A stretch of 64,000 bases of DNA from Hygrophila difformis (lineage: Eukaryota > Streptophyta > Magnoliopsida > Lamiales > Acanthaceae), in NCBI GenBank assembly GCA_030278955.1, contig JAOANR010000010.1, positions 14,925,086-14,989,085 on the forward strand. Direction: 5' to 3'. How positions within the stretch are numbered: position 1 is the stretch's first letter; each line of letters opens with the position of its first letter. The translations under genes and the position numbers were made by a program. The notes below the pieces were generated by a model. The model searched no databases. It was not told the DNA's origin and was given only the letters and a program-made list of their open reading frames with translations. Of the stretch, positions 7,798 through 59,538 are shown one piece after another.

Positions 7798-8433
7798 TTC
7801 CTAGCAAATGCGGCTGGAAAGTCGAAACCACTAACCGATTTATTGAGGTTGAAGAAGGAAGAGGAGTTCAAATGGGGAGTCGACCAACAAAAAGCCTTCG
7901 AACAGTTGAAACAGGATTTGATGAATCCACCTGTGTTGGTTCCTCCGATTTTAGGACGGCCATTGAAGTTGTATATAGCAGCGGCCGAAGAATCTATCGG
8001 AGCATTATTGGCACAAGAAGACGATGAAGGAAGGGACCGGGCGATTTACTATCTAAGCCGAATCCTAAGGGATGCCGAAGTAAGGTACTCGCCGATTCAT
8101 AAATTATGTTTAAGTCTTTATCATGCATGCCAGAAATTAGAATATTATATTCAACCGAGGCAAGTGATAGTGGTGGCTTCGGTTGACATAGTCAAGATTA
8201 TGATGAATGATCCGGTCAGTAGCCGAAGAATGGCCAAATGGGCCATGAAGCTAAATGCATACGATTTGAGATATCAATCTTTGAGGGCTATGAAAGGACA
8301 GATTGTAGCCGATTTTCTGGCCGACCATGCGATACATCCGATGACCGATGACATCGATCATCAAGATCGGCCGAAAAAAGTCGGTGAGATAGGAATTGTA
8401 TACTTGCAACCATGGGTGATGATGTTTGATGGT
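7798..8433 (+). pseudogene. Element B first RNase H (connection) domain, cut by element C
   Basis: This continues the reverse transcriptase frame past the TGA at 7795. It encodes the thumb and connection-like region (FLANAAGKSKPLTDLL) and a degenerate RNase H (KLYIAAAEESIGALLAQ, AIYYLSRILRDAEVRYSP), which lacks the usual catalytic Asp at the first motif, as is typical of the retained first RNase H in Tat elements. It ends at MMFDG, the first catalytic motif of the second RNase H, where C inserted; the last five bases (8429-8433) are the duplication ATGGT. Confidence 0.85.
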
Positions 8434-9054
8434 TGATAATGGCCAGAAATGACCATTATTTTCAATCCATTTCCGTGTCTTAAACGGGCATTTGATCGCA
8501 TTCCGGTCTTACATTAAGTAAGAAAGCAGTCGAATTGGACTGATTTATGCATAATTGTAAAAACATTAAGCTGGTGTGAAAAAGGCATAAATATGTAATT
8601 TTATTACATAATTATGTTAGAAAAATCCAAAAACACGAGAAAAAGAAAAGGAAACAAAAAGATGGGAAAAAGATAGAAAAGCCCACAAAAAGAACATTTT
8701 CGGCCCATCTGGCCCAATCCAGCAGGCCCAGGAAGACCTTTGTCGCGGAAGCCCTTTGGCGCGATGCATGGTTCCGCGACAAAGGAGGGTTCCGCGACCA
8801 AGCAGCTTAGATGAAGAGGAGACCAGCCAAGTCCCTTTGTCGCGATGACCTTGGCGCGATGGCATGCTCCGCGACAAAGGCATGACTCCGCGACCAAGAC
8901 ACCCAATTAGAGACACAAGACCCAGTCGAGAAGCCTTGCCACATGCAGTGTGTTCCGCGACCAACTTGATGCTCCGAGACAAAGCTGTGATGTGTGTGAT
9001 GTCTTAAGACACAATGGGCTAGAATCAAGGCCCATGGGCTTAGGGTTACACCTC

Positions 9055-9062
9055 TATAAATA
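9055..9062 (+). promoter_or_regulatory. Candidate TATA box of the element C 5' LTR
   Basis: TATAAATA in CCTCTATAAATATGAGG, repeated at 22128-22135 in the 3' LTR. It lies about 620 bp into the LTR, so most of this LTR would be transcribed leader (R-U5) if it is the promoter. Confidence 0.6.
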
Positions 9063-10877
9063 TGAGGTGTCTCCCATGAGCTAAGGGTTGGAAAAATTGG
9101 AATTTTGTTGAGCTCTCTTGAAGGCAAGCTTAGGAGTTCTCTCTTAGGTAGTGTAGTTAGGTTTATTTTCATGTATTATTTAATTTTTGCTCTTAGCTTA
9201 GCTTAGTTTAGTGTTTTACTGGTTTACAGTGATTTAGATAGCCACTTTACACCATGTTTTGGTTTCTAAACTCTTGTTTTAGGGTTTGTAATACCCAAAT
9301 CATGGGTATTAACAACACCCCTTCAATAATATGGGAAAACATTCATCATTTGTGTCCCAAATCATGAAATGGGTCTCACACCCCATGGATTTATGCTTTA
9401 TTTTTCATTTCGGGGTCATTTGACCCCCATTATGCTATTTTTATGTTTACTGTTAGCATTTTATGGATAATGTTGTGTGTATGTGTGATCAAACCCTAGA
9501 TTAGGACTCTTGCTTCATTTTAATATTCTGCCCAGCTTTGTTATTTTTGCCTAAGCATGTTCTTCCTTATTTTGAATGTTTCTTGTTTGTTTTTAGCTTA
9601 GAATAGCTTTTTGATCTGAAATAGGGTGAGATCACGCTGTTTGCATGCCACTGTTCATTTCTGCTTTTTCTGACTTTTGTCCTGAACCACCTTGGGCGCC
9701 AACCGCCTTCTGTCGCGGAACCACGTTCCGTGACAGAATGGTTGTTCCGCGACCAAGATGTTTCAAGACACTTGTCTCCATAATCTAAAACCCTTTGTCG
9801 CGGAACACCTTGTCGCGGAACCACGTTCCGCGACAAAACTTTCCATGCATAGCGACAAAGGAGCCAAACTCTTGATCCATACTCCTTCATCCTGATGGGG
9901 TGCTGTCTTTTACTATCAGGGTCAGATTTTCAAAACCTCCGAGTGATAGGTTTTAAATGCTTTCTTTACTGCTTTCTTTTAACCGCTTTCATTAGAGGTC
10001 ACTCGGTTGTATTGAGAGTTGTGTAACTGCTACTAGGATTGACAGTTAAGGGATAGTTCATAACTTGATTAGAATCTTTGGGTGTGACATGGGAGAATGA
10101 TAGTAGTACTTGGCATTTCAATAAATGATATGTCGGGTGTTGCTTTGCCACCACAGATGAAGTAACACACCCAGGCCAGGGCAGTTACCAATCTGTGGTA
10201 TCTTAGAATTTGTGGTCGTAAGAACATGTAAACTCATATTGTAAGTACCTGTCTGTTAAAGGGAAAGCATTATTGAGAGCATGAGAATTAGCTATCTGGT
10301 AGAATTATCCCCAAACAAAGATCTGCGTATAAAAATGGAAGTTTAATTATGCTTTATCTAAATCTTGTCCAATTTTCATTCTTTTCTCCCTGTCTTTCTG
10401 TCTACATTGTGATTCAGCTTCGCGGCTGGCACAATGTAATTTTTCCCTGCTTTAATAGATAATGTTTACCGCATTCTTAGAATAATTTTTACCCGCTTCC
10501 TAGAATAGCTTTATTCGCTTTGTAGAGTAATTTAATCGCTTTTATAATGTAGTTTAAATTCATGTCAGTAGTTATTAATCACCTTTTAAAACCATTGAGC
10601 AATACGAATGGAAAATCTAGTAAAACGACGTGGGCCCTGCTTCTATCGCACATCCTCCAGTGAACGATCCGGTCTTACTATAAATTACTGCAATTTTTGA
10701 CACCGTGCGCTTTCGGGCCACAGTTTCTTAAACACGAGCAATAAAAACATGACTACTTATAAATATATCCCTAATCACAACTCCGCCATCATAAATTGGT
10801 TTCATTAAATAAAATCTGAACCAGGATCATGATTTTTCGGAAAATACTCATGTCGTGGAAATCTGTCAAAAGTTTCA

Positions 10878-11180
10878 TGGCAGGAAATCTTATGGCAAGA
10901 ATTGATGAGAAGTATCATGGCATATTTGCCGGGGATCCTCAGTGTGACAGGCTGAAGATCAACCTATCCCGGCTGTGCCATGAGATTTGTCAACATTTCA
11001 TGACAGAGAGGACCACAGCGCCATTTGAAACCAAGCACCACACTTGAGTAATAAAAAGACTAATAATCTTGATATATCCCTAAACCCTTTCCCGTGAATC
11101 ATAACTCTTTCCTTTTAATAAATCTAACCTGGTATAATTTTAAGAAAAAGCTCGTGTGGACGAAATTGTCAAAAGTTTCA
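10878..11180 (+). repeat. 3' extension of the element C LTR containing a decayed second primer-site copy
   Basis: An LTR end-like string TCAAAAGTTTCATGGC ends at 10877, 303 bases before the true end with the same string. The stretches leading up to the two ends (about 10740-10877 and 11045-11180) are diverged copies sharing TATATCCCTAA and related strings. CATGGCATATTTGCCGGGGA just after the first end resembles the real primer site. Element E's LTR ends at the position matching 10877, so this looks like an extension gained by the C family. The 3' LTR has it at 25884-26186. Confidence 0.75.
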
Positions 11181-11198
11181 TGGCGCCGTTGCCGGGGA
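11181..11198 (+). other. Primer-binding site of element C, tRNA-Asp type
   Basis: TGGCGCCGTTGCCGGGGA directly abuts the LTR end. This is the well-known plant Athila/Tat primer site complementary to the 3' end of tRNA-Asp. Confidence 0.9.
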
Positions 11199-11341
11199 GG
11201 ATGCAGCGCCGTTTTATTTAGAGAACTACATTCCTCATTGCTCCTAGATTAGCCTATACATATAAATATAAATATTCACCTTCAGAACCAATTCTAACCT
11301 GGGGATTGTACAGGTACTGTCATCATTGAAGCCGTTGTTCT

Positions 11342-14026
11342 ATGCAAAGGAGGAAGCAGACGCCAGCCGAGATCCCGTTTAATTCAGAGATAGAAAAGAC
11401 AGCTCGACGTCTTAGGGCGGAGACTAAACGAAGAAGGGAACGGGAACGACAGGCACTACTTTCGCCAAGCACCAGCAGCGATATTTCCGAGATGGCAAAC
11501 CCTGACATCCCACCAATCATTCAACCTAATCCCCCACTACACAACATTGAGGAAGACCCCGAAGATGCCGATCACGATGACTTGGATGATCCCCCTCCCC
11601 AGATCATACAAGGAGGTGGAAACCCACCAAACATGGAACAGCAGCACTTCGAGGCACCCCCTCCCAATCTGAATCAAAACCCACCAAACAACCAGAACCA
11701 ACCAAATCAGCAAAACTTCCAAAACCAGCAAAATCAGCAATACCATAACCCCCATCAGAATCCCCCGAATCCGAATGATTTCAATGATCCGAGGAACTAT
11801 TTCATGCCTCAGAACTACTACCCACAGCAGTACCAAGGCGGGCCTGAGAACAATCATCAAGCAGCAGCTGCTGCTGATTACATGCAGCCGATTTTAGAGC
11901 CATATCTGAATATTCCTGGACAAGCTCCATTCTTGGCTAGGAACTTTGAACTGAAACCGGCCCTAATCAATCTAGTCCAGAGCAACCAGTTTGCCGGAGC
12001 AAGCCATGAAGACCCCCATGATCACCTGCAAACCTTCCTAGAATTGTGTGACACGATCAAGAATCGTGATGTATCTGCAAACACTATTCGACTAAGGCTA
12101 TTTCCCTTCTCTCTGACAAGCGGAGCACGAACATGGTACAAGTCACTGCCCGTAAATCAGAAGTCTACATGGGAAGATGTGATCAGAAACTTCCTAGCAA
12201 AATACTTCCCGGAGTCCAAGGTGGATGAATGCCGCTCCAAAATTGCGGAATTCAAAATGAAACCAGACGAGTCCCTGTATGATGCAAAGGAAAGATTCTT
12301 CAACCTACTCAGAAAGTGTCCTCAACACGGTTTCCATGACTGGGAGAGACTGAGAAAGTTCTACAGTGGTCTGACCCCAGCGTGGATATCCATGCTTGAT
12401 GCTGCTGGTGGTCAACATTTGCTTTACATACCGATGGACCAAGCCTGGGCAAAGATTGAAGCCATGAGTGTCAACCGTTCTGTTCTAACTGATGATGGTA
12501 ATCCCACTCCCCCTCGCGGTTTATGTGCTGTAAGTACAGTAGAGAAGTCAGACATTGAAAAGCTTCAAGAGCAAGTGGCAGCGTTGTATGTAAATCAAGG
12601 AGTCGGAAGTTCTGCGCAGGGACATCAAACTGATGTGATCTGCGGACTGTGTCAAGGTGCTCATGCAACTGACACATGCGAGCAAATCACAGCTGAGAGC
12701 TGCAACTATGCAGGAGCTTTTCCAAATAGACACCCGAATTTGTCTTACTCAAACAACAACGCTTTGAATTCACATCTTTTGAACAAGCCACAGCAACAAC
12801 AGTTCAACCCTCAGCAGAATCAAGGATTCAATCAGAACAGGGGCCAACATTTTCAGAATCCAGGTTTCCAACCTCAAATCCAGCAGAGGCCGCCTCAGAA
12901 TTTCCAGAACTTTCAGCCCAATCAGAGTTTCCAGCCTCAGTTTGTCCCAAACCAAGGCCAGTGGAATCAGAATCAAAATCAGAATCAGAATCAAAAGCCT
13001 CCTTCAAGGCTTGAGAATTTGATGACTGATTTCATCACTAGTCAGAAAGAGATCAACAATCAACTGCAGGCCTCCATCAGAAATGTGGAGACCCAAGTTA
13101 CACAGATGGCTAACGAGATGCAGAAAAGGGATAAAAGTACATTGCCAAGCACTGCGGAAAAGAACCCGCAATGCAAGGCAATAACCTTGAAATCTGGAAG
13201 AGTACTAGCTGGACCGAAGGGAGCAGATACTGGAGCGGAATGTGAGGAAGATGATAGTGTTAACAATGCTGGTAAGGAAGCTGATAATGAGAACGAAGCG
13301 GAAAAAGAGACAGCCGAATTGCAGACTGAAGCTGCGCCTGAAATGGCTGAAACAGATAAGGGTACAGGTGAAGGAAAAAGGCAGGTTGAGCAGGAAGAGG
13401 TAATTATTCTCAACAGCACATGCAGTGCCATCGTTCAGAGGAGAATGCCCGAAAAGAAGGAGGACCCCGGATGTTGCACACTTCCAGTACAATTCGGAAA
13501 GGCCAAAGTGAGTATGGGGCTTTGTGATTTAGGATCAAGCATCAATGTGATGCCACTAGCTATGGCTACTCGCCTTAAGCTGGGGGAAATTCAACCGATC
13601 AAGATGAGACTGCAACTTGCAGACAGATCGATCATTCAGCCCGTAGGAATCCTTAAGGATGTTGTGGTCAAAACTGGGCAGGTTCTCTTCTCGGTCGACT
13701 TCATCGTTCTCGACATTGAAGAAGATTCTGAAATGCCGCTTATCCTTGGACGCCCATTTCTAGCCACTGGTGGTGCACTGATTGACGCCAAATCCGGAAA
13801 GGTCACCTTAAGGGTCGATGGCGAGGAGATCATCTTTGATATGGAAAAATTGCAGAAATTTCCGAATGACAGTTCTTGTTTTTCTTTTGAAAATGTAATA
13901 GTTAGGGAAGAGCCAGACTCTGAACTTGATTGTGAAATGATGCTGGATGAACCATCAAAGCAGGTACTGAAGCTTGCTGGCGTGGAGCACAAAGGATGCA
14001 AAGCCGTTCACTTTGCCGATCCCTAA
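11342..14026 (+). CDS. gag: Element C gag and aspartic protease
   Basis: The 894-residue frame opens at ATG 11342, 143 bases after the primer site. The N-terminal 170 residues are basic, then Pro/Asn/Gln-rich. The Athila gag core follows (about 190-390: LFPFSLTSGARTWYKSLP, FLAKYFPESK, LLRKCPQHGFHDW), then a CGLCQGAHATDTC zinc-knuckle-like stretch and a long Gln/Asn-rich tract. Near residue 727 is the protease motif LCDLGSSINVMPL with PLILGRPFL, whose D-L-G-S form is typical of Athila. The TAA at 14024-14026 is in frame with 26 further open codons leading into pol, so gag and pol form one frame broken by a single stop, either a mutation or a suppressible codon. Confidence 0.92.
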   Translation: MQRRKQTPAEIPFNSEIEKTARRLRAETKRRRERERQALLSPSTSSDISEMANPDIPPIIQPNPPLHNIEEDPEDADHDDLDDPPPQIIQGGGNPPNMEQQHFEAPPPNLNQNPPNNQNQPNQQNFQNQQNQQYHNPHQNPPNPNDFNDPRNYFMPQNYYPQQYQGGPENNHQAAAAADYMQPILEPYLNIPGQAPFLARNFELKPALINLVQSNQFAGASHEDPHDHLQTFLELCDTIKNRDVSANTIRLRLFPFSLTSGARTWYKSLPVNQKSTWEDVIRNFLAKYFPESKVDECRSKIAEFKMKPDESLYDAKERFFNLLRKCPQHGFHDWERLRKFYSGLTPAWISMLDAAGGQHLLYIPMDQAWAKIEAMSVNRSVLTDDGNPTPPRGLCAVSTVEKSDIEKLQEQVAALYVNQGVGSSAQGHQTDVICGLCQGAHATDTCEQITAESCNYAGAFPNRHPNLSYSNNNALNSHLLNKPQQQQFNPQQNQGFNQNRGQHFQNPGFQPQIQQRPPQNFQNFQPNQSFQPQFVPNQGQWNQNQNQNQNQKPPSRLENLMTDFITSQKEINNQLQASIRNVETQVTQMANEMQKRDKSTLPSTAEKNPQCKAITLKSGRVLAGPKGADTGAECEEDDSVNNAGKEADNENEAEKETAELQTEAAPEMAETDKGTGEGKRQVEQEEVIILNSTCSAIVQRRMPEKKEDPGCCTLPVQFGKAKVSMGLCDLGSSINVMPLAMATRLKLGEIQPIKMRLQLADRSIIQPVGILKDVVVKTGQVLFSVDFIVLDIEEDSEMPLILGRPFLATGGALIDAKSGKVTLRVDGEEIIFDMEKLQKFPNDSSCFSFENVIVREEPDSELDCEMMLDEPSKQVLKLAGVEHKGCKAVHFADP

Positions 14027-17000
14027 ACAGGGGATCTGGAGGAGTTTGACGGCATCGAATTCCATGATGACGCCAACCAAGAGGAAGAAGAGGATCCTGT
14101 ACTGATGCAGGATCCCGAAGGTAAATCTGTTCTCCCACTGCCCATTTCTCGCAAACTACTCCCTTCCGTTGAATGTCCACCAGAGCTTGAACTTAAAAAA
14201 TTACCCGATCATCTCAAGTATGCATTTCTCGCAGAACATAAAAAGTTACCCGTGATTGTTTCGGCTAAGCTCTCCCAAGAGCAAGAAAATGCTCTGGTGG
14301 TCATTCTTAAGAAACATGTACATGCAATAGGTTGGACCATTTCTGATATAAAAGGAATAAGCCCTTCTATTTGCATGCACAGGATTCTAATGGAAGAAGA
14401 GTTTAAACCCTCCCGTCAACCTCAGAGGCGATTGAATCCCCTTATGCAAGAAGTGGTAAGGAAAGAAGTTATCAAGCTCTTAGATGCTGGTATAATCTAT
14501 CCTATCTCTGATAGCAAATGGGTTAGCCCAGTGCAGGTCGTACCCAAACGAGGTGGGATGTGCATAACCAAGAATGAGCAAGGAGAAGAGGTTGCAACCA
14601 GGCCAGTGACCGGATGGAGAGTTTGTATCGACTACCGGAAGCTGAACGAGGCCACACGCAAGGACCATTTTCCATTGCCATTCATTGATCAGATGCTTGA
14701 GAGGTTGGCAGGGAGAGAGTTTTATTGCTTTTTGGATGGTTATTCTGGTTATAATCAGATTGTTATTTCTAGTGAAGACCATGATAAAACCACTTTTACT
14801 TGCCCGTACGGCACTTTTGCCTATCGACGGATGCCTTTTGGTTTGTGCAATGCACCTGCTACTTTTCAAAGATGCATGATGTCTATTTTCTCTGAATTTA
14901 TCGAAAAATGCATTGAGGTCTTCATGGATGACTTCTCTGTATATGGAGATACGTTCGAAGATTGTTTGACCAATCTTGCTAAGATTTTAAAGAGGTGTGA
15001 GGACACTAACTTGGTTTTAAATTGGGAAAAGTGCCATTTTATGGTCACTGAGGGCATAGTGTTAGGTCATCGCATTTCTCGTGCAGGCATTGAAGTTGAT
15101 ACAGCCAAAGTTTCCATCATTTCCAATCTCCCTCTTCCTAACTCGATCAAATCAGTTAGGAGCTTCTTAGGGCATGCCGGTTTTTACCGGCGATTCATTA
15201 AGGATTTCTCTAAAATTGCCAAGCCGCTCACTAATCTGCTTTGTAAAGAAAATCCTTTCTTAATAAATGAAGCGTGTGTCCAAGCCTTTGACACGCTCAA
15301 GAAGATGTTGGTTTCTGCACCGATAGTGCAACCACCCAATTGGTCACTGCCTTTCGAGGTAATGTGCGATGCTAGTGGTCTCGCCGTAGGCGCAGTTCTT
15401 GGACAACATAAGGATGGGAGACACTGTGTAATTCATTACGCAAGTCATGCCCTGAATGAAGCCCAAGTTAACTACACCACAACGGAGAAAGAGATGTATG
15501 CTGTAGTCTTCGCGTTTGACAAGTTCAGACAGTACCTGATAGGTACAAAGACCATAGTATACACCGATCATACAGCATTGAGATACTTGTTTGGCAAACA
15601 AGATGCAAAACCTCGATTAATCAGGTGGGTACTTCTGTTGCAAGAATTCGATATCATAATAAAAGATAGGCGAGGTCGAGATAATGGTGCTGCTGACCAC
15701 TTATCTCGATTAGATAATGATAAAAAGGAAAAAGCCGTCAATGAAGAGTTTCCGGACGAACAGTTGTTTGCGTTGCATTTGCATAATCAAGCTTGTCCAT
15801 GGTTTTCTGACACCGCTAACTTCTTGGCATGCGGAATAACCCCACAGTTTTCGAACTATCATCAGAGGAATAAGTTCAAACGAGATGTATTAAGTTACTT
15901 CTGGGAAGAACCTTATCTCTTCAAACACTGCGCCGATTCAATAATCAGGCGATGTGTGACCGAGCATGAAGCCTATCAAATTGTCAGAAAATGCCATGAA
16001 TCAGAATATGGAGGTCACCACGGTCCCGCTCGAACGGCCCACAAGGTCCTCGAATGTGGATTTTACTGGCCTTACATCTATGAGGATTGCAGGACATTTG
16101 TTAAGGGTTGTGACAGATGCCAAAGATTAGGAAACATCTCCAAGAGGGATGAGATGCCTCAAAAGGGGATTCTCACACTTGAGATCTTTGATGTATGGGG
16201 CATTGACTTCATGGGACCGTTTCCACCATCTGGTGGAAACTACTATATCTTGGTGGCTGTCGATTACGTATCCAAATGGGTTGAGGCTGTCGCATTACCG
16301 ACCAATGATGGTAGCCAAGTCATCAAGTTCCTCAAGAACAACATTTTCAGTCGATTTGGCGTACCTAGGGTGGTGATATCTGATGGAGGAACACACTTTA
16401 TTAATAAAGGTTTTGAAACTTTAATGAGTAAAAATGGGATCCTCCATAAGATAGGCACGCCTTACCATCCTCAGACTAGTGGTCAAGTCGAAGTATCCAA
16501 TCGCGAAATCAAACATATACTCGAAGCCACTGTCGGGATAACCCGTAAGGATTGGGCACGTAAGCTCAATGATGCTCTATGGGCATACCGCACAGCATAT
16601 AAGACTCCCATCGGGATGTCTCCATACAGGCTGGTCTTTGGAAAAGCCTGTCATTTGCCTGTAGAGCTAGAGCATAAAGCTTACTGAGCCGTTAAAACGC
16701 TTAACTTCGATCCGAAAGTTGCTCAAAGCAAACGTAAGTTGGACCTCAATGAAATTGAGGAAATACGAGCGCAAGCTTATGAAAGCTCTCGAATTTACAA
16801 GGAGCGGACCCAGAAGTTACACGATCGCCGGATCAAACCTAAGTATTTTTATGTTGGTCAACATGTGTTATTGTTCAATACTAGGTTGAAGCTGTTCCCC
16901 GGAAAGCTCAAATCTAGATGGGAAGGACCACATGAAGTACTAGAGGTATTCAAAAATGGAGCTGTCAGGATCCGAACTGATAGGGGCGATATAGTGGTGA

Positions 17001-17086
17001 ATGGACAACGATTGAAAGAGTATCTTGGACAGTTCAATCCGGAGAAAGAAAGCCAAGCAGTGGCAGACCCGGCTTACATTCAATAA
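14027..17086 (+). CDS. pol: Element C polymerase: reverse transcriptase, RNase H, integrase, with one internal stop
   Basis: Coding potential runs in the gag frame from 14027; the first ATG is at 14105. Numbering from there: RT motif [12 protein letters not shown] (about 210), [10 protein letters not shown] (about 272), RNase [16 protein letters not shown] (about 420), integrase HHCC zinc finger ending CDRCQRLG (about 629-672), and catalytic Asp, Asp and Glu near 701, 758 and 795. All catalytic residues are present. TGA at 16685-16687 sits where relatives have Trp (TGG), in [16 protein letters not shown]; the frame then continues to 17086 with the integrase C-terminal fold ([16 protein letters not shown]). 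Apart from two stops it looks intact. Confidence 0.93.
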
Positions 17087-18056
17087 GAAACAGCGTTTAA
17101 AAACACAAAAATTTCAGTTTATATATATATATAGTATATATTTATAGTATTTGTTTCACGACAAGAAAGTACCCAAAGATCAATTAAACATTTAGAGTAC
17201 TAAGACTCTAAATGTGAGGATGTTGATATTTGGAGAAAATCTAATGCGTCTTATTTGTCTGTCTTGCAGAAGTTCGGAACCACCAAAAAGAAGGAGCAGA
17301 TAAGAGTAACATGGAAAAACCAGGTTCTTGGTTGGATTAGTTCTATAAATCTGAGAAAACGCTTTCGGAAATTGAAGAAATTCAACACCCGAAATAAAAT
17401 TCACAGATAAATGGAACTGACCCAACCTAATTTTATGCAAGTGGATTATTTAAACTTTCAGCCCAGCATTTTGAATTCACTTGGCCTGAATTTATTCAGC
17501 CCAAATCAAATAAAATGGACTCAGGCCAACATCACACTCGGGCCCAGTCCCAGAAATTTGAAAATTCAAAATTCTTTGTCGCGGAAGGTCCATTGTCGCG
17601 ATGTCATGCATCGCGACCAGGCCCTCTTCCGCGACAAACCCCTGTTTTGCTCTCAACTCTTCCTCTGTTGATTGTCGCGATGCACCTTGTCGCGGAGCAT
17701 GACTCCGCGACCAGGCCCTCTTCCGCGACACAACCTACGTTGACCTTGTCTCCATACTGAACTTTGTCGCGGAGCATGACTCTGCGCCCAACTCGTGACT
17801 CCGCGCCCAACTCGTGACTCCGCGACCTCTCTGATGTCGCCATGCCTTGTCGCGGAACCTTGTTCCGCGACAAAGTCTCGGATTCCGTGACAAAAGTTCA
17901 AGTATTTATACCCCCCGCCCCCTCCAGTTCCTTTCCACTTTCTCCTGTCATTTCAACTTCCTCCAGCCTCTTCATTTTCTTTCCCCCATTTTTCTCTTAT
18001 CCGAACGAACACCACGTGTTCTTCGCACTCTTTCACTCCATTTTCAAGGGGAAACT
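17087..18056 (+). promoter_or_regulatory. Element C post-pol module: LTR-like upstream region with palindrome cluster and TATA-like box
   Basis: No protein gene is seen. At 17210-17225 is AAATGTGAGGATGTTG, the motif that ends at the true 3' LTR start (21493-21508), here followed by TGATAT, resembling the LTR start TGATAA. Palindromes of the LTR type fill 17575-17885, including a nested pair with outer arms TTTGTCGCGGAA (17575-17586) and TTCCGCGACAAA (17627-17638) around inner GTCGCGATG and CATCGCGAC. TATTTATA follows at 17903-17910 with a C/T-rich stretch, 147 bases before the F-box exon 1 ATG. I infer an LTR U3-derived promoter for the F-box gene. Confidence 0.6.
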
Positions 18057-19844
18057 ATGGACCGATTTCATGGACTCCTCCCAAACCTTGGACCCGTGCC
18101 TAGACCCGAGCCAAGGAGGGCAGGGTAAACCCTGTTTTCGCCATGTTCATGGCACCCATTCGGACCCTTTATTTTGTTTTTATTTTGTTGTGTTCTTGGT
18201 GTGGTGTGGTTAGTGTGCACGTCTAACTTTAGATTTTTGGAGGTTCTCATGAGTGCTCTCGGTTATGAGCACTATTTTGAAACTTTTGAAACCCTTTTTT
18301 TTTTTTTAAACTGGTAATGGATAAGATTTTGAAGTTTTAAAACTGGAGAGAACAAACTGATGAACATTTGGGTATTGTTTTGAATATCTTGATGTTATTG
18401 GTTTGATTGATCTTGATGTGACATGCACAGTGTTGTTTTGGTGTAATAAAAGAGGTAAGATCTTTTTGGGCACATTTGTTCCTATGTTAGAGATTTCATG
18501 GGAATAAATGTTTGTTTGTTTATGGAAACATAGTACAAACACCCAATGAGAAACTTCCACTTTTAATAAAAGTAACCTTTTAGAAAAGACAAAAAGAGTT
18601 ATTTTTGTTTAATGTTTGACTTGAGTTTTTGTTCCCAATGGAACACTAGTGTGAGTAAGATAGCAGTATTTTTGTCACCCAACTGCTATCCTTTTCAAAA
18701 ATCAAAATGGGACCACTCACACCCCACTTTTATTAAATAAAACAAGTCAACCATTTTAAAAACTAAAAACAGTGTTTGCAAATTTTTGGATGCTCTAACT
18801 GTCCAAACAGTCCAAGCTATCCAGAAATAGCAGATCCGTTCCGCCACGACTCCATTGCACATTCCAATATTCGAGCACTCCATTTCCATCTGTCCATCCC
18901 ATTCCACTTCCAACAAGTGTCTCGGACTTGTTTAATAAATTGAAAAACTTTTGGGCCCAATGGCCCATTAAAAAAAGATTTTAGGCCCGATGGCCAATTT
19001 AATTGTATTTTGGGCCTCTTAGCCCATTTAAAACCAAATATTATTTACGTGTGCTTTAAATCGAAATTCGAGTCAGAAATTTAATAATCTCACATCTAGA
19101 GCAAAGCTCTAAATGTGAGGATGTTGGTTTCTGAACTTGAATAATTATATAAAAATGGGATTCATCACTTCTTATCTTTTCAGGGGTAATCCTCCCATTC
19201 CAGATCCTGCACCAGAAGGAACCAAGTTGCTGGACTTACCAGTCGAACTCCTTGGTGAAATTCTCTCCCGAATAGGAGAGGATGAAATCAGGGAGGTGTT
19301 TGCCGCACAACGAGTGTGCAAGAAGTTCAGGGATGCTGGAAACCTTGCCATCGTGTACAGGCGATGCGATGTCAACTCCTCCACTGTGAAGAGATGGCAG
19401 GGAAGGATCCGTCGGCAAAAGGAGAGATTCCTGCGAATATGCACAGCAGCAGGAAACTTCAATCTTCAGATCATCCCAGCACTCAGGGCATTTGCAGAAG
19501 GGAATGAGGAGCGCGCTTGTGAACTGCTACGCCCAGGACTTGAGGACAACCATAAGGCGTCAATCTTCACCCGCGGATTGATGCTCATGAGTAAGACGGA
19601 TGAAGGCCAAGTTGAGCAAGGAATCAGAATGATCGATAGGATGGTGACAGATCGATCAGTTTTTCGGTATACGTCCACCAACGTCCTCGCTTGGATAACA
19701 GACAACCCAGACAACCCACAACTGTGGGCAGGCCAAGGAGTCAGAGTCTACTGCCCAAGATGGCATGCACCTCTGAGAAACCGCGATTGGTGCCTGCGTT
19801 GTGAGCTTTCCAGCTGCGTCCTCTGGCTTCGATACATGCCCTGA
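18057..19844 (+). CDS. F-box protein gene carried by element C (two exons)
   Basis: The proposed CDS joins 18057-18124 and 19184-19844 (729 bp, 242 residues) across a 1059-bp intron with donor GG|GTAAAC and acceptor CTTTTCAG|GG. The join keeps frame, with the N-terminus starting MDRFHGLLPNLGP and continuing Pro-rich. An alternative unspliced start is ATG 19155. Residues 38-77 form an F-box (LLDLPVELLGEILSRI, VCKKFRDAGN), the part that binds the SKP1 adaptor of SCF ubiquitin ligases. Residues 131-177 look like a Sel1-type helical repeat (ACELLRPGLEDNHKASIFTR), and the C-terminus has C213, H217, C226, C229, C234, possibly metal-binding. This resembles the plant At2g35280-like F-box group. The frame is undamaged while pol has two stops. 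Splicing is inferred, not observed. Confidence 0.8.
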
Positions 19845-21492
19845 AGAAAGAAGGAAGAATCCTAGTCCCACTTTACCCTGCTTTATTTTATTTCCATTTT
19901 AGTAGTAGTAATCTGCAAGGGATTCCTCTTTTTGTATGTGCAGGTTTGTACTAACTGCACGAGAATCCCTTGCCTCGGATGTATTTATTCGCTTTCCCTA
20001 AATTGGAACTCAGTTTTTGAGACCACTGAACAATTCTTTACTGCTTTCCTTTGAAAAGATGTCTGTACAGTCCGAGATGAATAAGTGACTGTCAGACCAA
20101 AAATATGCTGTTGACATACCTAGTATGTCAGCAGTGCCTCTTTACTGCTTTAAATTAAATAACCAGCAAAAATATGCATAAACCTGCTCTAAATTCACAT
20201 GTTGAATTTAGGCTTATGATAAAATTTTCAAACTTTTAAATTGGGATAATATAATTGAGAACATGCATGAAATGAATTCCTGAGGTTTTGAGCTATAAAA
20301 ATTTAATGATGCGATCAGCTTATTGGGTAATAAATCTGCATGTTAGAGGTTTTGATTGAATAAATTGTTAGAATTAAGCTGTGATTAAATTTAAGAATAG
20401 TGTATGACATGAATCAATCTAACCTTGTGAGATTTGAGCCATGAGTCACTTTTACTCATTTATTTTCATTGATGTGTGAATTATTTTGATTAAAGGAAAC
20501 TAGAACTTGCGATTATGACCGATTCAAGACTATGCCATATTCCAAAAAATCGAGCACATGATCGAGGCACTTAGAAAAACCCAAATTTTTGGCTTTCGTT
20601 TGAAATCCAAACCCAAAAATATTTTCCCTTTAGGATTAACCAATCTGAGCCTATAAGCCTAATTTTTCTTTGAAACTCTATATTTTCATAGCCTTATAAA
20701 AAGACCAAGAAATTCAAACCCAAGTGTGCAGGAATGAATTCTATCAAAGGCACTAAATTTATGATCATCAGAAAAAGTATTAATCGGTATTTCAATGAAC
20801 CGATTCAAAAAAAAATGTGTTGAGCTTCATTCAACAACAATAAATTGCAAATGACAAAGCAAATTAGACATAGTCTAATGTCAGGCAATAGAAAAGAAAA
20901 TCAAAAAGAAAGAAACAATGATGATCATAAATTTTAAATAAAAATGCCAAGTTATGATAGATTAATCCTTGCCACTTCTTAGCCCAATAATTTCCCTTTC
21001 CTACCTAATGCTACAACCGTATGCCCCATTATAACCCTTAAATAAGACCTCATGATCTCGATTTGAAGAAATGAGCCGGTGGCGAGTTGGTCTGATTGCA
21101 AGCTTATGGGATAATTTAATTAAAATTGATTATGAGCGTTCACTGACTGAACCCCAAATGAGAGTGAGTGATCCTTCCGATTCTCTTATAAGTGAGGCTC
21201 TGTTTCATTAAAATGTTCATGTCATCCTCTAATTCTCATCCTTAATCTTTGCATCTTTCAAACATGATATTCATGAAGGATTGATAATAATGTTTGATTT
21301 GTAGGCCCGATATAGTGAGCAAGTATCATTTCATTAAACACTGCAATCAAGGGAGTTTAATACTTGTAGTTTTTTATTGTCTTATCCCAATTCAAAAAGA
21401 ATGTGATTTATGAAGCCACGAAAATGAATTGAATATGTAGAGTCCGTGTTCTTACGAACATTGACTCTGACTGCTCGGGGACGATCTGTATT
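19845..21492 (+). other. Element C non-coding region between the F-box gene and the 3' LTR
   Basis: About 1.65 kb of AT-rich DNA without a supported frame. It is the presumed 3' untranslated region of the F-box gene plus element sequence. It ends at the AAATGTGAGGATGTTG motif (21493-21508) spanning the 3' LTR start, the presumed polypurine-tract equivalent. Confidence 0.6.
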
Positions 21493-21506
21493 AAATGTGA
21501 GGATGT
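21493..21506 (+). other. Presumed plus-strand primer (polypurine-like) site of element C
   Basis: AAATGTGAGGATGT directly precedes the LTR start TGATAATGG. It is not a classical purine run, but location identifies it. The same string recurs at 17210-17223 and 19111-19124. Confidence 0.6.
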
Positions 21507-24500
21507 TGATAATGGCCAGAAATGACCATTATTTTCAATCCATTTCCGTGTCTTAAACGGGCATTTGATCGCATTCCGGTCTTACATTAAGTAAGAAAGC
21601 AGTCGAATTGGACTGATTTATGCATAATTGTAAAAACATTAAGCTGGTGTGAAAAAGGCATAAATATGTAATTTTATTACATAATTATGTTAGAAAAATC
21701 CAAAAACACGAGAAAAAGAAAAGGAAACAAAAAGATGGGAAAAAGATAGAAAAGCCCACAAAAAGAACATTTTCGGCCCATCTGGCCCAATCCAGCAGGC
21801 CCAGGAAGACCTTTGTCGCGGAAGCCCTTTGGCGCGATGCATGGTTCCGCGACAAAGGAGGGTTCCGCGACCAAGCAGCTTAGATGAAGAGGAGACCAGC
21901 CAAGTCCCTTTGTCGCGATGACCTTGGCGCGATGGCATGCTCCGCGACAAAGGCATGACTCCGCGACCAAGACACCCAATTAGAGACACAAGACCCAGTC
22001 GAGAAGCCTTGCCACATGCAGTGTGTTCCGCGACCAACTTGATGCTCCGAGACAAAGCTGTGATGTGTGTGATGTCTTAAGACACAATGGGCTAGAATCA
22101 AGGCCCATGGGCTTAGGGTTACACCTCTATAAATATGAGGTGTCTCCCATGAGCTAAGGGTTGGAAAAATTGGAATTTTGTTGAGCTCTCTTGAAGGCAA
22201 GCTTAGGAGTTCTCTCTTAGGTAGTGTAGTTAGGTTTATTTTCATGTATTATTTAATTTTTGCTCTTAGCTTAGCTTAGTTTAGTGTTTTACTGGTTTAC
22301 AGTGATTTAGATAGCCACTTTACACCATGTTTTGGTTTCTAAACTCTTGTTTTAGGGTTTGTAATACCCAAATCATGGGTATTAACAACACCCCTTCAAT
22401 AATATGGGAAAACATTCATCATTTGTGTCCCAAATCATGAAATGGGTCTCACACCCCATGGATTTATGCTTTATTTTTCATTTCGGGGTCATTTGACCCC
22501 CATTATGCTATTTTTATGTTTACTGTTAGCATTTTATGGATAATGTTGTGTGTATGTGTGATCAAACCCTAGATTAGGACTCTTGCTTCATTTTAATATT
22601 CTGCCCAGCTTTGATATTTTTGCCTAAGCATGTTCTTCCTTATTTTGAATGTTTCTTGTTTGTTTTTAGCTTAGAATAGCTTTTTGATCTGAAATAGGGT
22701 GAGATCACGCTGTTTGCATGCCACTGTTCATTTCTGCTTTTTCTGACTTTTGTCCTGAACCACCTTGGGCGCCAACCGCCTTCTGTCGCGGAACCACGTT
22801 CCGTGACAGAATGGTTGTTCCGCGACCAAGATGTTTCAAGACACTTGTCTCCATAATCTAAAACCCTTTGTCGCGGAACACCTTGTCGCGGAACCACGTT
22901 CCGCGACAAAACTTTCCATGCATAGCGACAAAGGAGCCAAACTCTTGCATTTTGTCTGCATGGCTTTTTGTCGCGGAGCCACGTTCCGCGACAAAATCTC
23001 ATTCTGAGACAGAAAAATTATGCCATATTCCTTATTCTTTGAACACTCTTGTCGCGGAACCACGTTCCGCGACAAAAATCTCCACGCATAGCGACAAAGG
23101 TTCAAATGCCTTAGGAATTTTCTGAAAATTCTTTGTCGCGAAACACTCTTGTCGCGGAACCACGTTCCGCGACAAAATCTTGCATAGCGACAAAGAGGCG
23201 TTATGCTGCCAAAAATTCTAAAAACTTGTCGGGATGCCCATGTCGCGGACCTCGGTCCGCGACAAAATTTATGGTATCGCGACAAGGGTTCCTCTCTCTC
23301 TATTTAATCTCAAACAATCTTCTTTCTCTTCCTACATTATATTGCAACACTCACATCATAACCCCACGGGTTAAGGTGTAATATTCTGGAATTGCAATAT
23401 AGGGTGTTATGCTGCCCAAATTTTGATTCTCCATTTCCCTCACTTAACTGATTGAACCCTTGACTCATTAATGATTAAGGATTGAGATTAGCAATAATCA
23501 AACTTCAATAATCATCATGACTAAAGGACCTTTGTTCAATTGCCATTAAAATACTCCTCTATAAACAAAATCTTGATGGCTTAAACAGATAATCCGGACT
23601 GTAAATAATTATGGTAGGAGGGATTATTTAAGACCATCAATTGTGGACCTAATCCACAACCTTGCATGAGAAACCAATGTCTCTCATACAAGGAATCTTC
23701 TCCTATTGCTTATTGATTTTGTCTTTGCGTGTTGTGTGTAACAATTAGTAAAGAATACATCAGATTAATGTTGGCGGGTATTCCCTCATGGATAACTAGC
23801 TTGTAATCTGCGTATTAATTACTAAGTGTTATTTTGCATGGTCTGGATGACTGTCAGTGGAAGCCTTGGCGGTTCGCCCATCCGGGGTTATAATAGCTGC
23901 TCGGCTGACTCCCATCCAGATACAGTTTCATTTTTCTTATCTTAATTTCCAAACCTAAATTCCAATCTGTAATGGGGGTCAGTTGGCATCAGTCAATGCC
24001 CACTGACGATCATTATAGAAGGGAAGCATGTAGGTTTTTATCCGAATTCACAGGCAGTGGAGGCCCAACTGGTATTGACACCACCATTACAGGGTCTAAA
24101 CTGTCTAAATTCGCTCCATCCGAGTAATTGGGAAATTGGACAGTAGATGTTTACAATCCACCTGATTATTCTGCCATTACTTTGGTCTCTTGACCACTTC
24201 ATATCTGTGTTTCACCCTCTGTCTAGACCCGCATCTATATTTTGGGTCAATTAATTTTACAGTTCCCTATATCCTTATGCATGATAATATTATGTACTAT
24301 TGTGGTCTATATTATTTTGGGATCCTTCCCTTGGACAATAGAAGTCTAGATCTTAATCAGATATTGTGTAATAAACTTCCAACAAAAATCTTCTTATAAA
24401 ATCCGGATCTGAGTAAGGGATAAATTCTTCAGTTATGACTACTTCATATCCTGTCAAGGGTTGTATTTTGGGAAATTAGAAACAGATTCAGCGATTAGGT

Positions 24501-26186
24501 CTCGCCTAGACTGAAAGGGTCTGTGTTTTAACTGAGAGTCTAGTACCTGATAGTGAATGATTTTCAAATCCATTATCTTCCAAAATTACTGGTTGTTGGA
24601 AATCTAAGATTGAATACTACACCGAGATGGGGTCCACTTGGACTCAAATACAGTGTAGTAAATAATCTCAGAGGAACATCACCCAGGCCTTGGTTATTTT
24701 CTAAGATAGGGTTGAGTTTTCTTTCAACTACTATCCTCTTCTGCCAAAGCCTATTTTTGAGTCCTGAGTGAGTGCATCCGGAACGAACTAAATCATTAGT
24801 TCGTTTCATTAGTTTGTATCTCATAATCACCCGGAAGAAAGTGAACACACTAGTGGTTCACCAAGAGCCGGGAATTCTTGATCCATACTCCTTCATCCTG
24901 ATGGGGTGCTGTCTTTTACTATCAGGGTCAGATTTTCAAAACCTCCGAGTGATAGGTTTTAAATGCTTTCTTTACTGCTTTCTTTTAACCGCTTTCATTA
25001 GAGGTCACTCGGTTGTATTGAGAGTTGTGTAACTGCTACTAGGATTGACAGTTAAGGGATAGTTCATAACTTGATTAGAATCTTTGGGTGTGACATGGGA
25101 GAATGATAGTAGTACTTGGCATTTCAATAAATGATATGTCGGGTGTTGCTTTGCCACCACAGATGAAGTAACACACCCAGGCCAGGGCAGTTACCAATCT
25201 GTGGTATCTTAGAATTTGTGGTCGTAAGAACATGTAAACTCATATTGTAAGTACCTGTCTGTTAAAGGGAAAGCATTATTGAGAGCATGAGAATTAGCTA
25301 TCTGGTAGAATTATCCCCAAACAAAGATCTGCGTATAAAAATGGAAGTTTAATAATGCTTTATCTAAATCTTGTCCAATTTTCATTCTTTTCTCCCTGTC
25401 TTTCTGTCTACATTGTGATTCAGCTTCGCGGCTGGCACAATGTAATTTTTCCCTGCTTTAATAGATAATGTTTACCGCATTCTTAGAATAATTTTTACCC
25501 GCTTCCTAGAATAGCTTTATTCGCTTTGTAGAGTAATTTAATCGCTTTTATAATGTAGTTTAAATTCATGTCAGTAGTTATTAATCACCTTTTAAAACCA
25601 TTGAGCAATACGAATGGAAAATCTAGTAAAACGACGTGGGCCCTGCTTCTATCGCACATCCTCCAGTGAACGATCTGGTCTTACTATAAATTACTGCAAT
25701 TTTTGACACCGTGCGCTTTCGGGCCACAGTTTCTTAAACACGAGCAATAAAAACATGACTACTTATAAATATATCCCTAATCACAACTCTGCCATCATAA
25801 ATTGGTTTCATTAAATAAAATCTGAACCAGGATCATGATTTTTCGGAAAATACTCATGTCGTGGAAATCTGTCAAAAGTTTCATGGCAGGAAATCTTATG
25901 GCAAGAATTGATGAGAAGTATCATGGCATATTTGTCGGGGATCCTCAGTGTGACAGGCTGAAGATCAACCTATCCCGGCTGTGCCATGAGATTTGTCAAC
26001 ATTTCATGACAGAGAGGACCACAGCGCCATTTGAAACCAAGCACCACACTTGAGTAATAAAAAGACTAATAATCTTGATATATCCCTAAACCCTTTCCCG
26101 TGAATCATAACTCTTTCCTTTTAATAAATCTAACCTGGTATAATTTTAAGAAAAAGCTCGTGTGGATGAAATTGTCAAAAGTTTCA
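21507..26186 (+). repeat. 3' LTR of element C (full length, 4680 bp)
   Basis: It starts TGATAATGGCC and ends GTCAAAAGTTTCA, followed by the duplication ATGGT (26187-26191). It contains the 1933 bp absent from the 5' LTR. It has a TATAAATA box (22128-22135), upstream palindromes (21812-22055) and a downstream array of longer hairpins (22783-23286). Element E's LTR has the matching region, so 4.7 kb is the ancestral length. Short frames across the array (SRNTLVAEPRSATK and similar) are repeat artefacts. Confidence 0.93.
22783..23286 (+). repeat. Hairpin array in the element C 3' LTR
   Basis: Six palindromes start near 22783, 22884, 22967, 23050, 23150 and 23241, spaced 80-100 bp. The core is GTCGCGGAAC-CAC-GTTCCGCGAC (10-bp stem, 3-nt loop). 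Variants are GGAGCCAC (22967) and GGACCTCGGTCC (23241). Most units are followed 10-20 bases later by a lone half-site such as TAGCGACAAAG. The array lies downstream of the candidate TATA box, so it would be in the leader RNA. Confidence 0.9.
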
Positions 26187-26191
26187 ATGGT

Positions 26192-26431
26192 TCTAAAGCC
26201 GCTTCAGGAGTCGAAGCAGGGTTTACCCTACAAACACCGGAGGGCAAGGTATACAAGTATTTCGTGCAATTGCCAGAGTCATATACGAATAACCAAGCTG
26301 AATACAAAGCGTTGATTTCGGGATTACAACGGTTGATAGAAGAAGGAATCAAAGCAATCATTATCAGAGGGGACTCACAAGTAGTTGTTCAGCAATTATT
26401 AGGCGATTTTCGGTTAAGAGTTCTCAGTTGA
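26192..26431 (+). pseudogene. Element B second RNase H domain, remainder after the element C insertion
   Basis: This continues from 8433 after element C. It keeps the catalytic Glu (NNQAEYKAL) and second Asp (RGDSQVV) of an archaeal/plant-type RNase H; the first Asp (MMFDG) lies on the far side of C. The frame visible upstream (from 26162) reads out of the C LTR and is chimeric. A one-base frameshift near 26415 ends this frame at 26431, and the domain continues in the next frame from 26428 (YIEYIPREKNEVANELA, with the last conserved Asn/Asp region). Confidence 0.85.
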
Positions 26432-27858
26432 TTAGATTGTACGAAGAAGCGGTTAATTTGTTAGAAGAATTCGATGAGGTATATATTGAATATATCCCAA
26501 GGGAAAAGAACGAAGTAGCCAATGAATTGGCTCAACACGCAGCTAGATATCGGCTGATGCCGATAGCAGGAAATGTGGAAGTACATTTGGCCGAAACAGA
26601 GAAGGCCGAATGGATAAAGAAGATAGCACAGACATTAGAAGATCCTTCGGAGGCTAATCCAGCTGAAAAGCGGAAAGCGATGGATTACGTCATAATAGGA
26701 GGATTATTATTCAAGCGTGCTATTGATGGAGTATTGCTCAGATGTGTCGGAGAAGAAGATGCCAGAAGGGTGATAGGAGAGGTTCATGAAGGAATATGTG
26801 GCGCACATCGGGCAGGAAAATCGATGAAGTGGAGTATTATTCGGCTGGGATATTATTGGCCGAATATGGGTACTGATTGTGAAAAATATGCGAGAGGATG
26901 CAGCGAATGTCAGAAACATGGGCCGATTCAGAAGTTACCGGCCGAAGAATTACACATAATGATCAAACCATGGCCATTTCGAGGATGGGCCATGGACATC
27001 ATAGGAAAAGTTCATCCCTCTTCATCTAAAAGACATGAGTTCGTGCTAGTGGCAACAGATTACTTCACGAAATGGGCCGAAGCTCAGGCGTATGTCAGTA
27101 TTTCACAAGAAGAGGTGATCGAGTTTATCAAGAGACAATTGATTTATAGATTTGGGATCCCACAGACGATTCTAACAGATAGAGGAACTGTATTCGTGGG
27201 AGAAAGAGTCAAGGCCTTTGCAGATGAATACGGAATAAAAATTGTGCATTCATCACCATATTACCCACAAGGAAATGGACAAGCAGAGGCCACAAACAAA
27301 CAGCTAATAGGAATTATAAAGAAAATGATCGAAGACCAACCAAGAAAGTGGCATGAAAAGCTGTCAGAGGCATTATGGGCTTATCGAAATGCTAAAACTT
27401 CAGCCACTGGGTTTACACCATTTCGGCTGACTTATGGAATGGACGCAGTGTTGCCAGCCGAAATAACAGTACCGACTTTGAGAACAAACCAAGCGGATTC
27501 AATGTCGGCCGAACAGTATGATTGTGCGATGAAAGATGAGTTATTGGAAATTAACTCCAATCGGATGCAAGCCTTTGAGAATTTGCAGAAAAACAAAGAT
27601 GTTGTGGCCGATTGGTACAATAAGCGAATTCGTCTTAAGCGGTTTGAAGTTGGAGACTTAGTTTGGAAAGTTATATGGCCACCCAAGCATAAGGATGGCC
27701 GATTAGGTAAGTGGAGTCCCAATTGAGAGGGACCGTTTATTGTTCATACCAAATTACCGAATGGAGCATATATGTTAGTGGACGAAAATGGTGAGCAGAT
27801 GTCGAATCCAGTAAATGCAAGATACATGAAGAAATATTATCCATCAGTTTGGGATTAA
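26428..27858 (+). CDS. Element B RNase H C-terminus and integrase, with one stop near the end
   Basis: Integrase inserts element DNA into the genome. After about 40 residues of RNase H tail come the HHCC zinc finger (HEGICGAHRAGKSMKW to CSECQKHGP), then the catalytic core with Asp in WAMDIIGKV, Asp in LTDRGTVFVGE and Glu in GQAEATNKQL. The C-terminus (VGDLVWKVI) follows. TGA at 27724-27726 interrupts where a Trp is expected (SPN-stop-EGPFIV; TGG to TGA); the same frame then runs to TAA at 27856-27858. Confidence 0.9.
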
Positions 27859-28920: not shown

Positions 28921-31900
28921 TTAATGGTCTTCCTGGTCATCAAAGGGAACATCATCATCCAAGCCTTGCGAAGCAGCGATAGAAGGATTAACCGAATATG
29001 TCATCAGATTCGAACTTGCTGAAGAAGAAGGGCCAGCAACGTCACCAGATGGGAGGCGAACGGTGGATGAACCAGCACCACAGGAAGTACCAGGTTTCCC
29101 TAGGGAAGAAAAAAAGGGAATAATAAGTAAGAGAGCATAAAGAAGAATCACAACAAGAAATGGAGGAAAACAAAGTACCTGAGAGAACGGTTGACAAAGG
29201 TGGATTATCGCCCGAAGGGGAGGTCTCTATCTCGGAAGGATCCAAAGGAAATAAAACATGTGGAGAAGAGACATGAACAACACTTTGCCCACCAAGGCTT
29301 TTGATGGCCGAATCCAGCTGACCGACTAAAGACTGGGTTTCGGCCCATTTTTCTTGGAAAGTACCAAGAATGAAATCGTTGAAACTGATCCGCATGGCCA
29401 GATAAGAAGCATCCTGCTGAGAATCCAAGATTTTGGCCTTGGGAGCCTCGGCCGATTGACGAAGGGCTTTTATTGACCGTCGCAGATCGGCCGATTTTCG
29501 CTTAGTTTGAGCTAAAATCAATTCCAAATCCTTCTCTTGTCGTTGGAGCTTGGCTATTTCAGACCGAATCGAAGAAAGGTCCTCGGACTGTTTATGTTCC
29601 TGAGATTCCACCTCGGATAGTGTATTCATCTGAGCCCGATACTCTGCAGAATAATTATAAAAAATGGCTCGTGAAGAAGCCGCAGCTTCACGCTCGGCGG
29701 CAAGTTTGTTCCGCATTGTCAAATGAGCCATGAGTTCCTGATCCATTGAGAGGACAGACTTCGTAATCATTTGAAGAGTGCCATTTAGATTCAGAGACAC
29801 CATCTCGTCATGAAATTGTTGCTCAAGATGAGACAAGAGAATGAGGATCGGTTTAGGATTGACAAACTCCACATCAGATTGCCGGCCGATTAGATTACAC
29901 AGCCTGGCCAAACAATCGCCAAGGTGAACAGAAAGATCTGACAGACGAGAAACTATAGAGACAGGAGAAAAGAAATCGTCCAAAACATGCCGATCAGGAA
30001 ATGGTGATAAAGGGACCTGATCGGCGGGGGCTTCATCAACAATCCTACCACTAGATGAAGGGCCAGTCGGTTTCAGAATAACCGAAGACAAGGGTGTGAC
30101 AGAGTCCGTAATAGGTTGAGAAAGATCAACCGAAGGAGGGACGAAAGGGTCGGCAAGAGTAGAACTTTCAATCAAACCCCGAGGGTTAACAAAAGAAGAA
30201 CCAGCATAAACAGCCAAATTACTGGTACCAGCCGATGTGCGAAATTCAGTTACAGGAGGAGCCGAAACCACAGTGGGAAGTGGGGGAACATCGGATGGTG
30301 GCAAAACGGGTGGGACCTGGCAAGAGTAAGAAAAAAGAAATTAGTCGAAGGAAAGGAGCCTGGAAAAGAAAAAGAGTAGTGTAACAAACCGCAAAAAGAG
30401 TGGTAGGGATTCTGCCAAGCGGTGAACGAGATGAACGCCTTCTAGTCTGAGTAGGAGGAAGAGAGCCAATAAGGGAAGCTGAAGGCGAAACAGGCCTCTT
30501 TCGACCAGGATCAGAAGTAGAAGATCGAGGAACATCTGAAGAAATCGAATGAGTAAGATGAAAGATAAAGAAACAAGCAATGACCAAAGGAAAAGGAGAA
30601 AGAAAATGAACATACCTGGGCGAGAAGTGGAAGGCGAACCGAGGATGCGCTGAGGAGTGGAACCCGGAGATGATGAAGGGAAAGAAGAGAACGCCAGAAT
30701 AGGAGAAAAACCACCCCTCCGCAGAACCGAATCAAGATTAGCACTGAAAAAGGCACCAGCAACACCGTCCCACCAAGACTGAAAGCGGGAGGTAACGCAT
30801 CCCGGACGAACAGCAAACTTCCAAACCTTAAAAGAGATTAAACGTTTATGATAGAGGGAGCATTGCTGACGGCTGGCAGAAGCAGAAAGGCGTTTACCGG
30901 CTCTAAGAGCTTCCACTAAGTCTTGACCGAAGCCGAATTGACGGCTGACCAAATGGGGATTGTAGACTTCGAAAGGAATAGCAGACTTAGCAGATACGAA
31001 TGTGGAACCATTAAAGATCGGACGGGGTAATATACACCTATTCCAGATTTGGGCAAGAGCTAAAGGAAGGGAAGCCCCGAAGGGGGAAGTAGCAATCTCC
31101 CTGACCCAAGCAAAGTCAGTTTTCCGATAGTGATAATGGGAAAAGGATTGTTCGGCAGTTCGACCCAAGAAATAGTTGATCCAATGAGGAATCGACAAGG
31201 GAGGAAGGGATGCTCTAAGAAGATCAGGAGCGATAAAACGATTAGGACAAATATCATGGGGAGGAAATTGAGAAATGTCACGAAAATGCCAAACCAACCA
31301 CAAATGGAGGAACCATAAAGGACCACGGGCTTTATCGGACGAACCTTTTTCCCAACCCGACACAGTAGCCGAAATACCCGCATATAAATGAGCAAGGAAG
31401 AAATCGGCTAAGGGCAGAGTCACATGGTTAATAAGCGCCGAAGCCAGAGAGTGCGTTTCGAGGAGAACACCCTTAGAAGGAACACACCAGAAGAATTTCG
31501 TAAGAAAATACATCATGAAAGCAAGAGGTTCTGAAGGATGTGGAGCAGGCGAAACAGGATCACTCTGATGAGAAATGATCCAATTGGCAAAAGAATCGCC
31601 AGAGGAAAAGCCGATATTTTTCTCCTTGGGCAACGACATGATGGCAAGGTTATCCCCACGAACAGAGAGGCCTGGGAGGAGTTTCACATCCTGAATGGTG
31701 GGAGTCATCATCCCCCAAGGGAAACAAAAACAGTTCACGGAAGGATTCCAAAAACAAAGAAGGGCTTGAATAGGACGAAGGTCCGTGGGAAGTGGCAAGG
31801 TACTAAGAGAAATCATACGATGAATATACGATTTATTCCAAGAGTCGTAACAGTAGGGTTCAAGATGACGGTACCACGCCACATAATCGGGAGAGGCCGA

Positions 31901-59464: not shown

Positions 59465-59538
<74 letters not shown>

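Follow-up and report, generated by a model that had tools for sequence, protein, structure and literature searches.

In a 64,000-nucleotide stretch of Hygrophila difformis DNA (the window, 64 kb), an F-box gene was found in sense orientation between pol and the 3' LTR of an Athila-type retrotransposon (element C, Table 1), with an open frame, F-box and TPR_27 domains, an upstream palindromic array that matches arrays in the LTRs and, before its second exon, the top-ranked splice acceptor of the interval. An even chance was given to the explanation that an Athila lineage has a resident host-type F-box/TPR_27 gene, expressed separately in an accessory role. According to this explanation, a captured host-type gene would have become a sense accessory ORF at the env position of the lineage, and would be transcribed from an internal promoter at ~17.9 kb, behind the palindromic array common to the LTRs. 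Splicing (18124/19184) would then yield a 242-residue protein whose F-box part would join SKP1-cullin complexes in SCF assembly, with the TPR-like part and the Cys/His tail binding a target.

Element C and its surroundings

In its sequence, element C fits the Athila lineage of Ty3/gypsy elements. Pfam models RVT_1, RT_RNaseH, H2C2, and rve occurred in the Ty3/gypsy order, and no RVT_3 model, as for an additional RNase H, was detected in element C (Pfam, E up to 0.01). The primer binding site motif is presumably the complement of tRNA-Asp. For two relatives, Diaspora and Calypso, the available text of PMC1142308 gives a tRNA-Asp primer binding site. Among the 120 matches listed from a protein database, the RT-RNase H piece resembled plant RT proteins, without lineage names, at up to 75% identity, the best match covering 99% or more of the query. 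Since the pol frame ended at 17086 and the 3' LTR started at 21507, the pol-LTR interval was set to 17087-21506.

The two LTRs differed at 6 of 2739 bases over two compared stretches (1 of 1433 and 5 of 1306). The gag-pol frame was interrupted by in-frame stops at 14024-14026 and 16685-16687; the description 'undamaged' in the initial annotation thus held for the F-box frame but not for the element. Because few changes have occurred since insertion of element C, which is young, an intact F-box frame of 0.7 kb would be expected without selection. A block of ~1.93 kb at 22933-24892 of the 3' LTR was absent at 9860-9885 of the 5' LTR. The junction lay at a short shared TCTTG, which suggests that the 5' LTR lost the block by deletion, during or after insertion.

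Table 1. Features of element C and its F-box gene (positions in the window).
Feature	Position	Strand	Remark
Target-site duplication ATGGT, 5 bp, left copy	8429-8433	.	
Element C, Athila-type LTR retrotransposon	8434-26186	+	ATGGT duplication at both ends
5' LTR, 2747 bp	8434-11180	+	Without ~1.93-kb block present in 3' LTR
Primer binding site (PBS), presumably tRNA-Asp type, 18 nt	11181-11198	+	Directly behind 5' LTR
gag-protease-RT-RNase H-integrase	11330-17086	+	Single frame with two in-frame stops
Hairpin and polypurine tract, copy 1	17188-17225	+	16-mer at 17210-17225
Candidate acceptor (position of the exon's first base)	17270	+	Rank 4 of 241; 44 nt past tract copy 1
Palindromic GTCGCGG/CCGCGAC array	17571-17897	+	Resembles LTR arrays
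TATA-like box of putative F-box promoter	17903-17910	+	TATTTATA
F-box gene, exon 1	18057-18124	+	ATG at 18057; 22 codons and two bases
F-box gene, putative intron	18125-19183	+	T content 36%; exons 16% and 21%
Hairpin and polypurine tract, copy 2	19092-19126	+	Within intron; 16-mer at 19111-19126
F-box gene, exon 2	19184-19844	+	Encodes F-box, TPR_27, and Cys/His tail; ends in stop codon
Polypurine tract adjoining 3' LTR	21493-21506	+	Third 16-mer copy, 21493-21508
3' LTR	21507-26186	+	Start fixed by ATGGT duplication
Target-site duplication ATGGT, right copy	26187-26191	.	

Element C was nested within an Ogre-like element (2650-32966), which showed gag, protease, RT, and RNase H to the left of element C, RVT_3 and integrase to its right (26302-27726), an antisense plant mobile domain frame (30341-32191), and repeats at 2650-3308 and 32335-32966 that were 95% alike. 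A second nested pair occupied 40397-60428. Its inner element had LTRs at 40797-43396 and 49300-51900 (98.9% alike), contained gag, RT, and integrase, and matched a chromodomain weakly. It sat in one LTR of a gypsy element on the minus strand; the second LTR of this outer element was located at 58886-60428. A minus-strand LTR remnant at 60429-63979, ~75% like the element C LTR over 2.5 kb, was cut by the neighbouring element and its internal region fell outside the window. A degenerate tandem repeat (self-matches 77-85%) was present at 1186-1734.

The F-box gene and its possible origin

Exon 2 was read as 219 residues (19185-19841) followed by a stop codon (19842-19844). By codon phase, both exons join in frame to a protein of 242 residues including the split codon, as the initial annotation had proposed; its placement of an F-box gene in sense between pol and the 3' LTR of an Athila-type element likewise agreed with the boundaries, frame, and domains found here. 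The F-box models PF00646 and PF12937 scored 22.3 and 24.6 bits in the full protein and 22.6 and 24.9 bits in exon 2 alone, margins that are small relative to the curated Pfam cut-offs (20.5 and 24.3, respectively). TPR_27 (PF23310), located C-terminally of the F-box, scored 30.7 bits in the full protein and 31.1 bits in exon 2 alone (cut-off 27), in exon 2 likewise by a narrow margin. In exon 2, F-box and TPR_27 were the only Pfam models above cut-off. The repeat earlier described as Sel1-like turned out to be TPR_27, with no Sel1 model at E up to 10. The previously reported Cys/His tail was visible by eye and lay outside every listed Pfam model. No NCBIfam model matched the F-box protein, and comparison with solved structures returned one chain at chance level (E 0.9). 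A single-sequence AlphaFold2 model of the protein (mean pLDDT 38.6) was unusable and was discarded.

The longest stop-to-stop frame of the pol-LTR interval comprised 241 codons; when the interval was shuffled, 1 sequence in 1000 contained a plus-strand frame of at least this length. For exon 2, first-order Markov shuffling gave an equally long open forward frame in 1 of 5000 cases. Third-position GC was 0.534 in the F-box gene, compared with 0.432 in pol and 0.468 in gag-protease, a difference that suits a foreign origin of the gene without being proof of it. F-box proteins connect targets to SKP1-cullin ligases. Since an F-box is combined here with a TPR-like target part, the encoded protein would most naturally be read as an SCF adaptor.

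F-box genes evolve fast. When the F-box exon was searched against the plant-containing protein database, no matches were obtained at E up to 1e-3 (231 candidates) or at E up to 10 (198 candidates), in a search that requires shared exact 5-residue words and rules out fairly close relatives only. Presence of plants in this database was evident from the RT-RNase H piece, which matched at least 7987 proteins at E up to 0.001. The F-box exon yielded nothing in viral_contigs or genome_contigs, both plant-free by design, and the RT-RNase H piece nothing in viral_contigs. Within the 64-kb window, tblastn of exon 2 found itself alone above noise, and no second internal region of the element C family was present. 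Because no relative of the F-box exon was found in the plant-containing database, it appears less likely that a conserved host gene was captured very recently. Capture of a host gene, as proposed in the initial annotation, can fairly be suggested from the combination of an F-box with a plant TPR_27 domain, although no host parent was retrieved from that database.

These results also bear on the possibility, considered rather unlikely but the best-surviving rival, that the gene is a passenger without a role for the element, as holds for most captured genes, derived from a single or recent transduction of an intron-bearing host F-box gene via read-through and template switching. Plant LTR retrotransposons often contain captured genes, and transduction-derived aORFs occur in one or a few copies, according to the available parts of PMC7264820 and PMC3726574. 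A retained intron would be natural under capture at the DNA or pre-mRNA level, and the gag-pol frame of element C is broken. However, recent capture of a conserved gene should leave plant relatives, none of which were retrieved from the plant-containing database with the insensitive word filter.

Putative promoter, splicing, and hairpin/polypurine-tract modules

The TATA-like box noted in the initial annotation as part of an apparent promoter was present at 17903, and a promoter of its own is plausible for the F-box gene. The box is, however, weak taken alone, because TATTTATA occurred 17 times on both strands of the window (3.75 expected). The first ATG past the box was that at 18057; by composition, less than one ATG would be expected between them, so that absence of an earlier one adds weak support. 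GTCGCGG/CCGCGAC heptamers numbered 40 in the window, of which 11 lay in the 5' LTR, 19 in the 3' LTR, 9 at 17578-17865, and 1 elsewhere. A 25-nt palindrome (at most 3 mismatches) was found at 8 sites, 2 in the 5' LTR, 5 in the 3' LTR, and 1 at 17848; outside the internal array, this unit thus occurred in the 64-kb window only in the LTRs of element C. Homology of the internal array with both LTR arrays was evident: in each of the two comparisons, none of 200 shuffles reached the alignment score. For the array flanks, four comparisons with the LTR gave 169, 10, 83, and 102 of 200 shuffles scoring as high. The idea that the entire internal promoter stems from an LTR was dropped as unproven, as the array alone matched the LTR. 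A bacterial promoter scan was set aside as irrelevant to plants.

Splice sites were ranked with approximate plant weights, which placed the acceptor before exon 2 (19184) first among 241 AG sites of the pol-LTR interval and the donor at 18125 eleventh among 208 GT sites, and fifth of those between 17912 and 19180. Without splicing, the frame from the ATG at 18057 ends at a stop at 18126, and 18125 was the sole open, in-phase donor among 66 GTs downstream of this ATG. Together with the T-rich intron, these ranks made the two-exon structure of the initial annotation plausible. Splicing at 18124/19184 is likely but not required, because an alternative unspliced frame of 229 codons starts at an ATG at 19155. 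The earlier argument that an intron kept through an RNA cycle implies a separate mRNA describes one option: genomic RNA that is not spliced would still contain the intron, and the start at 19155 would need no splicing. Position 19944, located 3' of the F-box stop, is preceded by AG and followed by GT and ranked second in the interval both as acceptor and as donor; splicing in the 3' UTR is possible.

An observation new relative to the initial annotation was the presence of a hairpin/polypurine-tract module on either side of the putative promoter and exon 1. Exact copies of the 16-mer AAATGTGAGGATGTTG start at 17210, 19111, and 21493; no further site in the window matched it with two or fewer mismatches (0.05 expected). 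Hairpins ahead of tract copies 1 and 2 had z-scores of -4.1 and -4.5, with none of 200 shuffles as stable; no comparable hairpin preceded copy 3 (z-score -0.03; 97 of 200 shuffles as stable). Modules 1 and 2 were 87% alike across 38 columns. Between the two copies, the hairpin stem differed at one pair, with complementarity kept. Acceptors followed tract copies 1 and 2 at distances of 44 and 57 nt and ranked 4 and 1 of 241, respectively. Pol, hairpin, tract, acceptor, and F-box exon may once have been adjacent, the module being doubled upon arrival of the array, promoter, and exon 1. Alternatively, the tract may have been copied through template switching during capture.

The position of both modules ahead of highly ranked acceptors would also be consistent with env-like expression, in which genomic RNA is spliced into the acceptor at 19184, or via that at 17270, without an internal promoter, and in which the tract/acceptor modules are remains. 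Spliced env-like messages are reported for Bagy2 (PMC7264820, in the part available). This reading was nevertheless judged improbable: the best-scoring leader donor in the scored region 11181-11600, at 11314, would not bring any ATG into frame with exon 2, and a transcript entered at 17270 would contain 11 ATGs ahead of 18057. Entry of the F-box segment after insertion of element C, through a nested mobile element or ectopic recombination at polypurine tracts, would account for the identical 16-mers on both sides of the segment (17210 and 21493) but appears very improbable in view of the additional 16-mer copy inside it and the match of the promoter array to the element C LTRs; moreover, of the 49 inverted pairs, none of the 25 longest formed paired terminal inverted repeats at the ends of the segment.

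Comparison with known systems

LTR retrotransposons are known to capture genes, and Athila elements are known to carry accessory frames in sense orientation; published work also describes extra sense frames downstream of pol, transduced genes, and splicing of the env-like kind (PMC7264820, PMC6317226, PMC13317346, each as available in part). Element C shares with the Athila lineage (Athila4, Calypso, Cyclops-2, Diaspora, Bagy2) the gag-protease-RT-RNase H-integrase order, long LTRs, a pol-3' LTR interval that takes extra sense frames, and presumably a tRNA-Asp-type PBS. Its tract copy 1 lies 124 bp past the pol stop, compared with 128 bp for the Diaspora tract in the excerpted text of PMC1142308. 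In contrast to the transmembrane env-like or Athila ORF-1 frames of its relatives, the extra frame of element C is an F-box/TPR_27 gene.

Lying in sense behind pol and ahead of the 3' LTR, this gene resembles the aORF-3S/eORF-3'F class of plant LTR retrotransposons, from which it differs by encoding a recognisable F-box adaptor, probably with an intron. Such extra ORFs are heterogeneous and seemingly represent independent acquisitions, and the survey that described them took frames of at least 250 codons (PMC6317226, available passages). Because the longest stop-to-stop frame in element C has 241 codons, this cut would miss its F-box gene and likewise two-exon or shorter genes of this sort. 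Element C also shares a host-type coding sequence within the element with transduced genes such as those of maize Bs1 and the rice and sorghum captures. Whereas the Bs1 pieces lack full-length frames in the accessible portion of PMC13317346, the frame in element C is open across both domains, and the gene differs from transduced genes in having its own apparent start, intron, and promoter.

The statement in the initial annotation that no Athila family with an F-box gene was known found no contradiction among the literature matches listed, in which subscription papers were thinly covered and supplements fell outside: none concerned an F-box accessory gene in Athila or in another family of plant LTR retrotransposons. 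An LTR-gene in an F-box family is mentioned for Thlaspi, the element type not being given in the part of PMC8764390 available.

F-box-like silencing suppressors are used by plant viruses, for example P0 of poleroviruses and p22 of criniviruses (PMC6593998, PMC6784205), ARGONAUTE1 is regulated by an endogenous F-box protein (PMC2914764), and VANDAL transposons encode anti-silencing proteins (PMC10398659), according to the available parts of these papers. Because of these precedents, an anti-silencing role of the F-box protein is at most conceivable, and a silencing or defence factor as its target, the latter suggested in the initial annotation, would be a guess. It was considered improbable that a host F-box gene now serves an Athila lineage as a dedicated counter-defence gene, whose product would send a silencing factor to degradation, with the array common to LTR and internal promoter coordinating genome and accessory transcription and the hairpin/polypurine-tract/3' splice-site modules framing the gene. 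If copies of the element keep the gene under selection, it would represent a plant retrotransposon accessory gene with a nameable activity, the choice of ubiquitination substrates, and the role of extra frames behind pol would become directly testable.

A counter-defence gene of this kind would protect the parasite, as do VANC proteins and P0-type suppressors, by other means. As in P0 and p22, the F-box would meet SKP1 (PMC6593998, PMC6784205, as far as excerpted); in contrast to these viral suppressors, the gene of element C belongs to a retrotransposon and combines TPR_27 with a complete host-type F-box, and the proposed likeness concerns the use of the F-box.
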